Shown: positions 49,448 through 54,257 of the stretch, in pieces
Layout of the letters: every line of letters starts with the position of its first letter
How positions within the stretch are numbered: position 1 is the stretch's first letter
Assembly (NCBI GenBank): GCA_947472765.1
Contig: CANJCM010000014.1
Coordinates: forward strand, 1-64,000
Length of the DNA: 64,000 nt
Direction of reading: 5' to 3'
Source of the DNA: Opitutia bacterium
GTDB lineage: Bacteria; Verrucomicrobiota; Verrucomicrobiia; Opitutales; Opitutaceae
Program-made: the position numbers and the translations under genes
The notes under the pieces: generated by a model
Told to the model about the DNA's origin: nothing
Database searches by the model: none
What the model saw: only the letters and a program-made list of their open reading frames with translations

Positions 49448-49577
49448 GGGGTATGCGAGAGACGGGACGAAACTGGAGAACGATCGTACGATGCACGAGG
49501 GAAACATCCTCGCGCGTAAATCGCCCGGTGGAAGATGAGTGGCAAACCCCGCCCCGGCCATTTCATCGTCGTGCGGC

Positions 49578-50288
49578 ATGAACCTTCCGTCCGTCAGCCT
49601 TCCCGCCGGTTATCCGCGCATCCGGGTGGTGGAGACTTTCGATGAGTGGCTGGCCGCACCATTCTCTGACGGCATCAACGCGGTCTGCTGGCCGCGTGAA
49701 CTCAGCGGTGATTTTGCGGAGGTCGTGCGGCAGCTCGGCAGTATCGACGGCATCGCGCCGCTCAGCGCGGATCGGCTGCGCTCGCTGCCGCTGACCGCCG
49801 CGGGACGCGAAGCCGTGGAGGTGATGCTCGCCGACGAAGCCCGGCTGCGGGCCGCGGGGCTCGCGCCCGAGCTGAACGCCATCTCCGCCTATCCGCAGGA
49901 CGAGGAAGAGCCGCAGGCCCCGACGCACGTCTACTCTTTTCACGCCGACAGCGCGCCGATCGCGGCGGAAACGATCCTCTGCACCTATGCGGGCGCGCCG
50001 TCGGAAGGGTTGCGCAACGACGAGGCGCGGTGGCGGATCGACGACCCGGAAATTCGCGCCGACCTTCTGCGCCGGTTCGGCGGCGCGGATGACGACGATT
50101 TCCGCGCCCATCTGGCCGAGACGTGTCAGGACCTCCACTACGTCCCACTGGCTGGAGCCAGGCCTTTCAGCTTCGGCCTGGGCCATCTCTGGCGGATTGC
50201 GGTTCAATCCCCCGATTGCCCGGTGCCGCCCTGCATCCACCGCGCCCCGAAGGAACGCGGGGCTGGCCGGCTGCTGCTGATCGCGTGA
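49578..50288 (+). CDS. DUF1826-like protein
   Basis: 236 residues from ATG 49578. Blocks resemble DUF1826 in order: an early I-N-A-V-C-W-P-R (N-x-A-x-W-x-R in the family), a central FHADSAPIAAETILCTYAGAPSEGL (F-H-x-D...T-Y-x-G-x-x-S-E-W), and a final CIHRAPKERGAGRLLLIA (H-R-S-P...R-L-L-L). The conserved H-x-D and distal H/R are what iron/2-oxoglutarate-type folds use, but that is inference. No signal peptide. The assignment is by pattern only, and the protein is divergent. Confidence 0.6.
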   Translation: MNLPSVSLPAGYPRIRVVETFDEWLAAPFSDGINAVCWPRELSGDFAEVVRQLGSIDGIAPLSADRLRSLPLTAAGREAVEVMLADEARLRAAGLAPELNAISAYPQDEEEPQAPTHVYSFHADSAPIAAETILCTYAGAPSEGLRNDEARWRIDDPEIRADLLRRFGGADDDDFRAHLAETCQDLHYVPLAGARPFSFGLGHLWRIAVQSPDCPVPPCIHRAPKERGAGRLLLIA

Positions 50289-50311: not shown

Positions 50312-50410
50312 GGTTGGCCGCAAAAAGGCATAGCGCGGCGGATTCCTTCGCGGCCAGCCCACGCGCCCGCCGAAATCGAAAATCGAGAATTCAAAATCGA
50401 AAATCCTTTG
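50312..50410. repeat. Inverted repeat and R3 tract upstream of the PAS gene
   Basis: GGTTGGCCGC (50312-50321) is nearly mirrored at 50350-50359, followed by an R3 tract (AAATCGAAAATCGAGAATTC and more, 50376-50407). The open frame of the next gene runs through it, but the translated NRKSRIQNRKS is repeat-derived and not part of the protein. Confidence 0.55.
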
Positions 50411-50445
50411 ACTGCCCGGGCGTCGATTCTACCTGTTCACGCGTG

Positions 50446-51009
50446 ATGCTGGCGGACGTACTCCAGGACCGGGCTTCGCTCTATGTGTCTGGCGCCATGA
50501 CGGCGCCGGAGCGGGAGAACTTTGAACTCGTGCTCGAGTTTCACACCGAACTGCGCGCGCTCGTCGCCGGACTCCAGGACACCGCCGCCGTCGCGATCCG
50601 GGCGACGGTCCCGGCCATTCTTCCTCCCGCAACGCTGAAGGAACGCCTCTTTGCCGCCCTGGCGCCGCAGGCCAAGCCGGAAGCCGAGCCCATGGTCGTG
50701 ACGAATTCTGCGGGAACGGTGCAATGGATCAACCCGGCCTTCACCGCGCTCTGTGGTTACACGCTCGCCGAGCTCCGCGGACGCAAACCCGGTGCGCTGC
50801 TGCAAGGACCCCAGACCGATCGCGCCGCCGTGGATCGGATTCGCACGGCCCTGCACGATCTACGCCCCTGCCGGGAGGAACTCCTCAATTATCACAAGGA
50901 CGGCAGCCCGTATCGGGTCGACGTGCGGATCACCCCGATCCTCGACGATGAACGGCAGCCACTCTGGTTCGTGGCGCAGGAGCGAAAGCTGGCGGACGTC
51001 GCGGCTTGA
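50446..51009 (+). CDS. Anti-sigma-like N-terminus fused to a Cys-less LOV-type PAS domain
   Basis: 187 residues from ATG 50446 (GTG 50443 is possible). Residues 1-75 (LADVLQDRASLYVSGAMTAPERENFE, then ELRALVAGLQDTAAVAI...LPPATLKERLFAAL) follow the pattern of the cytoplasmic helical part of zinc-less anti-sigma factors. Residues 82-178 are a PAS domain of the LOV type: NPAFTALCGYTLAELRGR, LLQGPQTDRAAVDRI, ELLNYHKDGSPYRVDVRITPI and WFVAQERK. The adduct-forming cysteine before LQGP is absent (glycine at that position), while the flavin-contact Asn and Gln are kept. It is probably a soluble sensor; there is no membrane span and no sigma gene nearby. Confidence 0.8.
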   Translation: MLADVLQDRASLYVSGAMTAPERENFELVLEFHTELRALVAGLQDTAAVAIRATVPAILPPATLKERLFAALAPQAKPEAEPMVVTNSAGTVQWINPAFTALCGYTLAELRGRKPGALLQGPQTDRAAVDRIRTALHDLRPCREELLNYHKDGSPYRVDVRITPILDDERQPLWFVAQERKLADVAA

Positions 51010-51235: not shown

Positions 51236-51904
51236 CTACAAGTCGACGCTCTTCACCTCAGCCGTCCGTGACTGCTCCGCTCGCTTCCGGGCTTTCTCGA
51301 CGCCGAGGGCGTCGAGACCGAGCGCGTTGGCCACGGCCGGTACCGTGCCGACGCCGCAGAAGGGATCGAAGATCAATTTCGCCCCAACCTGGTCACGTGC
51401 GAACCGGACCGCATGCGCGGCGGCCCGGATGCCCATCGCGCGAATCCACAAGCTTCGGCCGGGATCCGTGATGATGTCCGGAATCGGCAGCACGTCGGGG
51501 CACTTCATCGCCCGCGAGACGGCGATGAAATGCGTATAGCCGGGCCGGCCACCCGTGAGCGTTCCCGGCGGACGGCGGCAGACCAGCTTGTGAAACAGCA
51601 CCTGTGCCCCCGCCTCCTCCGCCGCGGAAATCACCAGCGCGCCCTTGTCGATCCAGCGGCCGCCTTCCTTGATGTCAGATTGAAAGAACACGGCGGCGCT
51701 GGTTTCCGGCACCGCCTCCACCACGAGGCGCACGGCGCGGAGAAACCATTCACGCCAGTCGGGGAGCGCGAGTCCCACCTCCGACACATCGGGCAGCGAG
51801 GTCACGGCGCAGGCTCCCTCGATCCGGCCGCGTTCCTCCATCCACGCGATCGCGTCGGCGCAAATGATTTCGCGGGCCGGCGGGGCGGGAGGTGATGAGG
51901 ACAT
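51236..51904 (-). CDS. Beta-class SAM methyltransferase (DNA-methylase-like)
   Basis: 222 residues from ATG 51904. A catalytic-like motif IV (GACAVTSLPDVSEVG) precedes motif I (LIFDPFCGVGTVPAVANALGLDALGVEK), the permuted beta-class order of N4/N6 DNA methyltransferases. SLPD replaces the usual D-P-P-Y, so a DNA adenine/cytosine target is doubtful and an RNA or small-molecule target is possible. Middle blocks include AAVFFQSDIKEGGRWIDKGALV and RRPPGTLTGGRPGYTHFIAVS. It is an orphan gene without a restriction partner. The frame upstream of 51904 is repeat-like. Confidence 0.75.
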   Translation of the reverse strand: MSSSPPAPPAREIICADAIAWMEERGRIEGACAVTSLPDVSEVGLALPDWREWFLRAVRLVVEAVPETSAAVFFQSDIKEGGRWIDKGALVISAAEEAGAQVLFHKLVCRRPPGTLTGGRPGYTHFIAVSRAMKCPDVLPIPDIITDPGRSLWIRAMGIRAAAHAVRFARDQVGAKLIFDPFCGVGTVPAVANALGLDALGVEKARKRAEQSRTAEVKSVDL

Positions 51905-52292
51905 CGCCCGCACACTCAACCGCCCGGCGCGGACGGGCAACACCGGGACGCGGCTCGGCCGGCGTCGTTTTTGAGCCGGAAGCCAGGAATTCAGGAAACG
52001 AGCGTTCGGAGCACGGGCTGGGTTAAAGCGCAGCGTTCTCGGTGGTGAAGCACAGGCAGGCAAAGGGAGAATGCTTGGGTCCGGAGCCCTGGCTATCCCT
52101 CTGCGACCTCCGTTCACCTCTGTGTCCTCTGTGTTAAAAATCCGGCGTGAAATCTGCATCGAGCTTCCACTCGCTCACGCTCGTGGCCACGGAGCAACGC
52201 GTCGGTGTTCATCGGTGGTTCAATCCCGCGGCGTTCGCCGACCCGCGGAATACCTTGTCGCCGACACCCGTGCCCTGCGAATCTGCGGGGCC
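51905..52292. other. Intergenic region with short repeats, no gene
   Basis: About 390 bases. It carries CCTCTGTGTCCTCTGTGTTA-like wording at 52110-52135 and GTGTTCATCGGTGGTTCAAT at 52206, similar to ACCACAGA/TGGACAC tracts at 10026 and 44480. The frame of trmO runs through it but without protein-like sequence. Confidence 0.5.
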
Positions 52293-53159: not shown

Positions 53160-54257
53160 ATGAACGCGCCAGTGGCGATGCAGACCTTGTTGATCATCGA
53201 TGACGATGAACCGCTGCTTCAGGTCTTCCAGCGAGCGCTGCAGTGGGCCGGTTACAACGTCCTCCTCGCCACCAACGGCCGCGACGGGCTGGACCTCGCG
53301 CACCGCAACCTGCCGGACCTGATTCTCACCGACATCAACATGCCGGGCCTGGAGGGCACCGAGGTGCTCGCCGCCCTGCGCGCCGATCCCGAACTCGGCA
53401 ACCGCCAGATTGTCCTCATGACCGGGAGCGCCGCCGTCACCCCGCGCCGAGGCATGCAGATGGGGGCGGACGATTTCCTCGTGAAGCCGTTCACGGTGCA
53501 GGAATTGCTCGCCTGCGTCGAAGCCCGGCTCCGTCGTGCCCGCGTCCACTGGCGCGTCGACGATGCAATTGTGTCCGAGCTGCGCTCGAGCCTGCGGTCG
53601 ACGCTGCCACACGAGTTCTTCACGCCGCTCGCCGGCATGCTCGGACTCGTGGAGGTGCTGCGCGGTGACGTCGCCAAACTGTCGCCGGCCGAGATGACCG
53701 ACGTCCTCGATGAGATCGATCGCTCGGGGTGGCGGCTGCATCGCACCCTGAAGAACTATCTTTTCGTCCTGGATCTCGAGGCGGAGAAGAAGCCGCTCGA
53801 GCTCACCGCGCCCCCGTTGTCGGCCGAGAGCGTCCAGGCCGCCATCAACAGCGGCATCGAGGCCGCCATGAAACGGCAGCGGCGTACATCCGATCTGGTG
53901 ACCCGCCTCGCCTCCGTCCCGGTGCGCGTCCGCGGCGCTGACTTGGTCGCGATGGTCGAGGAACTCGTGGACAACGCCTGCAGTTTCTCGCGCCGTGGGA
54001 CGCCGATTCAGGTGACGCTCGATGACACCGGTCAGTTGACCGTCACCGACCACGGTCGCGGCCTGACTCCGGCGCAGATCGAGCAGATCGGCGCCTTTCA
54101 CCAGTTCGACCGAAAGAAGTTCGAACAACAGGGACTCGGCTTGGGACTGTTCATCGTGCGCAAACTCGCGGAGCGCACGGGCGCGGAGTTCCAAATCGAA
54201 AGCCGCCCCGGCGAGGGCACGACGGCGAACGTCGAATTGCCGGCGGCTGCGAGTTGA
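53160..54257 (+). CDS. Response regulator / histidine kinase hybrid (REC-HisKA-HATPase)
   Basis: 365 residues, soluble. A receiver domain (residues 8-125) has the acidic pocket IIDDDEPLL, phospho-acceptor Asp58 in LTDINMPG and Lys109 in VKPF. The dimerisation region follows with His151 in TLPHEFFTPLAG. The ATPase domain has the N-box VEELVDNACSFSRRG, DHGRGLTP and GLGLGLFIVRKLAE. A receiver at the N-terminus before the kinase core suggests a phosphorelay intermediate with an external input kinase. It is 42 bases after trmO on the same strand; the output partner is not visible. Confidence 0.94.
   Translation: MNAPVAMQTLLIIDDDEPLLQVFQRALQWAGYNVLLATNGRDGLDLAHRNLPDLILTDINMPGLEGTEVLAALRADPELGNRQIVLMTGSAAVTPRRGMQMGADDFLVKPFTVQELLACVEARLRRARVHWRVDDAIVSELRSSLRSTLPHEFFTPLAGMLGLVEVLRGDVAKLSPAEMTDVLDEIDRSGWRLHRTLKNYLFVLDLEAEKKPLELTAPPLSAESVQAAINSGIEAAMKRQRRTSDLVTRLASVPVRVRGADLVAMVEELVDNACSFSRRGTPIQVTLDDTGQLTVTDHGRGLTPAQIEQIGAFHQFDRKKFEQQGLGLGLFIVRKLAERTGAEFQIESRPGEGTTANVELPAAAS

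Follow-up and report, generated by a model that had tools for sequence, protein, structure and literature searches.

What might a small soluble protein with an anti-sigma-like domain at one end and a sensor domain at the other control, when no sigma gene lies next to its own, and to what would it respond? The question is posed by the gene at 50446..51009 (+) of the window (the whole stretch of 64,000 nt that was analysed). Its 187 aa product combines an anti-sigma-like domain with a PAS domain, and its relatives align with it at full length, most of them from the same start, which bears out the open reading frame. The full-length protein was found in 18 of the 95 genomes searched, its own included, and the proteins of the 17 other full-length carriers are 50-67% identical to that of the window. 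The full-length carriers with names comprise Opitutae, Opitutaceae, Opitutus and Cephaloticoccus assemblies, with a single one under the label Chthoniobacter, and make an Opitutaceae-like bacterium the likely source of the window; some of the genomes compared are incomplete assemblies. A profile search of a phylum sample found the family in 7 of 387 genomes, every one of them in the window's own taxonomic family group (f1). The dN/dS ratio of the gene is 0.05-0.10 (eight members measured). This low ratio and the spread over genomes at full length exclude a chance ORF, and the gene is a member of a conserved family, of which 27 distinct members were aligned.

The original prediction was right that no sigma gene adjoins the window gene. 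None of the 24 neighbourhoods first examined, some of which end at contig ends, has a sigma gene directly adjacent to the family gene, and two (L040 and L072) hold another sigma at a distance. Neighbours are conserved only inside two related sets of loci (L060/61/63/66/67/68 and L039/41/42/74) and in scattered pairs, in a comparison that left out the family ORF of L065. Within the window, the upstream gene (49539-50288) gave a sub-threshold match to DUF1826 (E 0.003), the downstream gene (51239-52159) a sub-threshold match to N6_N4 DNA methylase, and 53160-54257 encodes a response regulator receiver followed by HisKA and HATPase in one protein. At L040:7460-9025, near the family gene, one open frame encodes an ECF-type sigma (Sigma70_r2, r4_2) together with an HDOD domain; the own-genome relative (G000:C2) is a frame of 233 codons, too short for such a fusion. 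The G000:C2 ECF was rejected as a partner of the family, since genomes that carry the family and genomes that do not alike have it.

The N-terminal domain (residues 1-78; 50446..50679, +) was assigned as class I anti-sigma-like from NCBIfam NF052375, AlphaFold2 and Foldseek. When the whole protein was searched, the NCBIfam anti-sigma model NF052375 matched residues 12-102 with E 4.3e-9; residues 1-78 alone gave E 1.2e-8, and all 19 family N-termini scanned matched the model. The score of the window protein, 35 bits, is under the curated cut-off of 100 bits, and Pfam assigned no family to its N-terminus. AlphaFold2 predicted helices 4-15, 20-32, 34-54 and 64-75 for residues 1-78 (pLDDT 80.8, pTM 0.56), which fits the class I layout of a three-helix bundle, a flexible linker and a fourth helix as described in PMC7406223. 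Foldseek against the PDB returned anti-sigma factors at all of ranks 1-17 (RslA, RskA, RsiW, ChrR, MucA; E 0.14-3.3). VIA gave Z 6.5 for RslA (3.2 Å over 55), Z 6.2 for RskA (3.4 Å over 70) and Z 6.4 for RsiW, but the last at 9.3 Å over 70; the first unrelated chain scored Z 3.6. VIA Z values of this size are modest for helical bundles, and the fold alone would not decide. A PDB profile search with the N-terminus ranked RslA and RskA first, at E values of 0.03 and 0.2 that are not significant. The domain is read as anti-sigma from the modest fold matches, the profile and the paralogues (below) together. All three agree with the earlier claim of a likeness to zinc-less anti-sigma factors: an Hx3Cx2C zinc motif is absent, and residues 1-78 contain no cysteine.

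A domain of this descent might have ceased to inhibit and serve as a sigma decoy or activator, or merely as a helix bundle for dimerisation. RskA can also activate SigK via the same N-terminal region according to PMC7509140, yet the same source reports that the N-terminal part of RskA alone suffices to inhibit SigK, and the N-terminal 75 residues of the family are strongly constrained (dN/dS 0.11, six genomes). We regard a loss of inhibition as very unlikely.

The nearest paralogue of the window protein points to a sigma elsewhere in the genome. Contig G000:C27 encodes an ECF with Sigma70_r2 and r4 that matches the SigK subfamily (E 3.7e-44, second in the list and under that model's cut-off), and its gene is overlapped by an anti-sigma gene whose product has RskA_C and a hydrophobic segment. 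This RskA-like protein and the window protein align without a gap from Met1, have Y13, R23 and F26 in common and are nearest paralogues; both resemble the ECF19 anti-sigma consensus printed in PMC7406223. RskA itself, the membrane anti-sigma of SigK / ECF19, has a zinc-less N-terminal anti-sigma domain like that of the family. Unlike RskA, the family protein has no transmembrane helix and no RskA_C, carries a PAS domain and is encoded outside the operon of the sigma; after the N-terminal domain of the window protein Pfam found only PAS-type families. Judged by its sequence, the protein is a class I anti-sigma-like domain of ECF19 type set on a PAS domain.

NF052375 alone cannot pick the partner, since it also matches own-genome contigs with other ECFs (C102, C29 and C3). 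A profile of the family N-terminus, for which 98 candidates were scored in some of 57 genomes, found 34 places among them, namely 15 family genes and 19 others. Every one of the 19 others, including that at G000:C27, adjoins a SigK-like ECF gene as its anti-sigma; in G080 and G033 the ECF beside the match is more distant (E 8e-34 and 6e-33). For the sigma partner that the original prediction found missing, the relatives, if not the window, point to a SigK-like ECF. Among 16 ECF neighbourhoods of the own genome, only C27 clearly matches the family N-terminus (E 3.6e-8; next 0.05). These two results speak against an anti-sigma for another sigma of the same genome, for which the co-occurrence with the SigK-like ECF described below would reflect lifestyle. 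Such an alternative could draw on the number of sigmas in the own genome, where sigma region 2 gave 18 matches and 16 remain once the C27 ECF and RpoD, the best match, are set aside, and on the two neighbourhoods with a distant sigma. It could also draw on a specificity position in helix 1, where L18 of RskA faces L177 of SigK (PMC7406223). At the L18 place the family has S in 14, A in 10, T in 2 and V in 1 of 27 members, unlike the ECF19 type; Leu is retained in the anti-sigma paired with the ECF in the own genome. This is a point against full equivalence with RskA. Set against the 19 of 19 adjoining genes, the genome-wide comparison, a control ECF that does not track the family, shared promoters and an adjacency in one genome (all below), a different sigma partner seems to us quite unlikely.

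The SigK-like ECF accompanies the family across genomes. Within f1 it is present (E <= 1e-50) in 22/22 carriers vs 20/56 non-carriers, the latter having no family match at E <= 1e-12 in the profile search (Fisher p 5e-8, with kinship ignored). The same holds inside single genera, with the ECF in 14/14 carriers vs 9/13 non-carriers of g1, 1/1 vs 1/3 of g70 and 1/1 vs 0/2 of g72. Five further carriers, reached via named loci, all have the ECF (E 1.3e-77 to 2.6e-47), which is present in all 27 carriers, in one of them at E 2.6e-47. In the set of 57 genomes, 15/15 carriers and 9/22 f1 non-carriers have the SigK-like ECF, whereas the control ECF is found in 13/15 and 17/22 respectively.

A second link is a promoter. 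The pattern GCATC-N17-CGTA occurs upstream of 32/45 SigK-like ECF genes, typically as TGCATCCCC...CGTATGA. These 32 sites, out of 45 ECF upstreams that were scanned, were made into a PWM with a threshold of >= 10; random windows drawn from the 64,000-nt window only set the 99% level at 7.4. Sites that reach the threshold precede 9 of 26 family genes (G051, which has no upstream DNA on its contig, was left out), in G006, G008, G009, G014, G019, G021, G060, G354 and the Chthoniobacter-labelled genome. The controls gave 0/26 for reverse strands, 4/1560 for shuffles (60 per sequence) and 0/216 for other genes of the same neighbourhoods. The nine positive upstreams represent about four lineages, and the G354 site is weak (10.6) and overlaps a TTTGAC box. 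Since the window gene has no ECF-type site (PWM -7.0) and 17 of the 26 members lie below the threshold, it is these lineages, to which the window does not belong, that carry the promoter link. Ahead of the window gene we find instead a candidate promoter of housekeeping type, TTTGAC...CTAC, at 50407..50432 (+), 39 bases before the start codon. TTGAC lies 33-43 bases before the start codon in 19/26 members and is kept across genera, and from this position the family transcript may be nearly leaderless.

The shared site, in the form TGCATCC-N16-CGTAT, would be the ECF's own promoter, as expected for an autoregulated ECF. In G008 and G019 this exact pattern occurs once per assembly and ends 105-109 bases before the family gene. 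Over 30 genomes it gave 26 matches, 14 before the ECF and 2 before a family gene; a reversed control pattern gave one. Two genomes without the ECF (G005 and G018) also contain the exact pattern, and the matches in G000:C1 and G018 look like coding coincidences. We drew no wider sigma regulon from the 10 other matches, one of which lies before an RpoD-like sigma. At L241 (G023:C49:518453-518480) a copy of the exact pattern stops 78 bases short of a gene that encodes an N-terminus like that of L077, the RpoD-like sigma of the window's own genome; this would be a possible sigma cascade.

The membrane anti-sigma beside the ECF differs between carriers and non-carriers. In 20/20 non-carriers examined it has 270-370 aa and a hydrophobic segment. 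A form of 80-92 aa without the hydrophobic segment is found in 8/22 carriers (G006, G008, G009, G011, G014, G019, G021 and G026) vs 0/20 non-carriers; four further carriers have a full-length anti-sigma beside the ECF. In the family tree a single branch may set the eight genomes apart, with weak support (49/43), and the shortening represents one or two events, not eight. The ECF operon of the same eight genomes lacks a site of its own (best PWM -5.3 to 3.4 over 600 bases), and in six of them, all but G011 and G026, the site precedes the PAS gene. Within the six-genome clade dN/dS is 0.28 for the shortened anti-sigma, 0.10 for the PAS protein (0.11 for its N-terminal 75 residues) and 0.04 for the ECF; the shortened protein is under weaker constraint than either of the others.

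The Chthoniobacter-labelled genome supplies the one adjacency. Its second anti-sigma-PAS gene (L251 2066-2641, -; 191 aa) adjoins the SigK-like ECF gene, convergent and 4 bases away. An RskA-like gene was sought beside the ECF, and over the 5.7 kb of this contig that the analysis covered, and none was found; past the second copy the contig ends. The ECF lacks a site of its own there (-2.4), the first copy has a site 71 bases upstream, and the 119 bases of upstream DNA of the second copy score 8.9, above the 99% level of random windows (7.4) and below the threshold of 10.

Domains, N-terminal kinship, co-occurrence, promoter sharing, truncation and one adjacency were all computed directly. From this evidence we consider the protein to be, with good probability, a soluble one-piece anti-sigma for a SigK-like (ECF19-like) sigma with a PAS domain as input. 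The N-terminal four-helix domain, acting like other class I anti-sigma domains, would most likely bind the SigK-like sigma of the same genome (G000:C27) and so deny it access to RNA polymerase. The C-terminal PAS domain would sense an intracellular signal, and a change in it would loosen or tighten the grip on the sigma; binding, inhibition and release by the PAS signal are what we infer. Through the PAS protein, a sigma that is usually paired with a membrane RskA-like anti-sigma would gain an input from the cytoplasm. Some lineages have a membrane partner that has lost its sensor, or have none beside the sigma, and where the PAS gene stands under what appears to be the sigma's own promoter, a negative feedback loop may result.

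As to the signal, the original prediction proposed a LOV-type domain that lacks the photoactive cysteine and could respond to light or redox through flavin. The domain itself is clear: residues 83-181 (50692..50988, +) are a LOV-like PAS domain by Pfam PF13426, phmmer to LOV chains and Foldseek. Pfam covers residues 81-173 (PF13426 E 2.3e-14, PF00989 E 1.3e-12), the nearest solved sequences of the C-terminus in phmmer are LOV domains, and by Foldseek the PAS fold is nearest to LOV domains as well (E 1e-11). The protein has all three motifs named earlier, NPAF, LQGPQTD and NYxKDG. If residues are counted backwards from LQG, Gly116 (50791..50793, +; G in 21 and S in 6 of 27 members) occupies the adduct place, in agreement with the proposed replacement of the cysteine by glycine. 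The adduct loop is one residue longer than in LOV, and another placement of the gap puts Pro115 there, which is still not Cys.

Only some of the remaining LOV residues follow. The window protein keeps 4 of 9 LOV-defining residues listed in PMC4682037, the equivalents of G59, L65, Q66 and N94; those of N61, R63, F64, N104 and Q123 are all changed, and the equivalent of C62 is Gly116. The N104 place has V in 21 and A in 6 of 27 members, and the Q123 place, Glu179 in the window protein, has E in 26 and G in 1. The screen for Cys-less LOV domains published in PMC4682037 asked for at least 9 of 10 conserved residues, and natural Gln-less LOV domains, as far as PMC9098866 describes them, largely lack charged residues at the Gln place. 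Light or flavin sensing is therefore not supported. As tested on its sequence, the PAS domain appears LOV-like in fold and outside the LOV photoreceptor family. BAT-LOV is Cys-less and LOV-like (PMC4682037), and YtvA (LOV-STAS) ties a LOV/PAS fold to sigma control (PMC10949197); the family protein differs from YtvA and from the Cys-less LOV domains in how few of the listed residues it keeps, and from YtvA also in its effector, which in YtvA is a STAS (anti-sigma antagonist) domain and not an anti-sigma domain. Of the original prediction, the soluble one-piece sensor stands as the best reading, with an anti-sigma-like domain on a PAS domain and no membrane part; its specific LOV, flavin and light input is not supported, given the lost residues and the charged Glu at the active-site Gln place in 26/27 members.

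A PAS domain that binds flavin and switches by flavin radical chemistry in response to light or redox would be compatible with an anti-sigma for the SigK-like sigma. The LOV fold favours it, as do Q120, R133 and N148, flavin-contact equivalents that are invariant in 27/27 members (located by applying one fixed offset, counted from LQG, to the FMN contacts listed in PMC4335406), and Cys-less LOV domains are reported in PMC4682037 to be able to signal by photoreduction. Against these stand the changed equivalents of N61, C62, R63, F64, N104 and Q123 and the Glu at a place where charge is largely missing from natural Gln-less LOV domains (PMC9098866), and we think this input unlikely.

The PAS domain also contains two cysteines that the original prediction did not mention, C103 (50752..50754, +) and C142 (50869..50871, +). 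Both are invariant in 27/27 members and are present in a 28th, as H150 is invariant in the 27. A thiol- or metal-based redox sensor that uses C103, C142 and possibly H150 is a tentative proposal for the input. Neither place has Cys in the nine non-family PAS rows of the alignment. The two cysteines are the best lead that we have; the H150 place, in contrast, is also His in 2 of these 9 rows.

Among the literature matches listed, none describes a protein like this one, in which an anti-sigma domain is fused to a PAS or LOV domain, and a text search of a review of non-canonical ECF factors did not return the term PAS domain. Anti-sigma factors are named in passing among LOV effectors in PMC4335406. 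Soluble anti-sigma factors are common: the survey in PMC7406223 puts them at ~35% of class I domains, ~72% of those with a zinc motif. The same source shows that anti-sigma domains which are both soluble and zinc-less are already known, and PMC8999054 describes conformational sensors among soluble anti-sigmas as carrying a zinc anti-sigma domain. ChrR, the soluble partner of Rhodobacter RpoE/ECF11, offers a model of how the family protein might work: it too has an N-terminal anti-sigma domain and a C-terminal domain that is needed for release (PMC6852236), and VIA gave Z 4.5 (4.2 Å over 73). The two differ in their parts, a zinc anti-sigma domain and a cupin-like domain in ChrR, no zinc motif and a PAS domain in the family.

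The distribution of sites and partners suggests a history, which we put forward as an even wager. Control of the sigma would have moved from the membrane to the cytoplasm on at least two occasions. The PAS protein would have begun as an extra brake under a housekeeping promoter and then acquired the promoter of the sigma, and the membrane anti-sigma would have lost its sensor (in six, perhaps eight, genomes) or vanished from its place beside the sigma (in the Chthoniobacter-labelled genome). The signal to which this sigma responds would then now come from inside the cell. If the assignment of the window protein is true, ECF sigmas would have one more kind of input module, a PAS sensor joined to a zinc-less anti-sigma domain, and at 187 aa the protein is small enough for biochemistry and for engineered switches. 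The family, from extra brake and shared promoter to truncated partner and replacement, may then serve as a natural series on how a sigma changes its signal.
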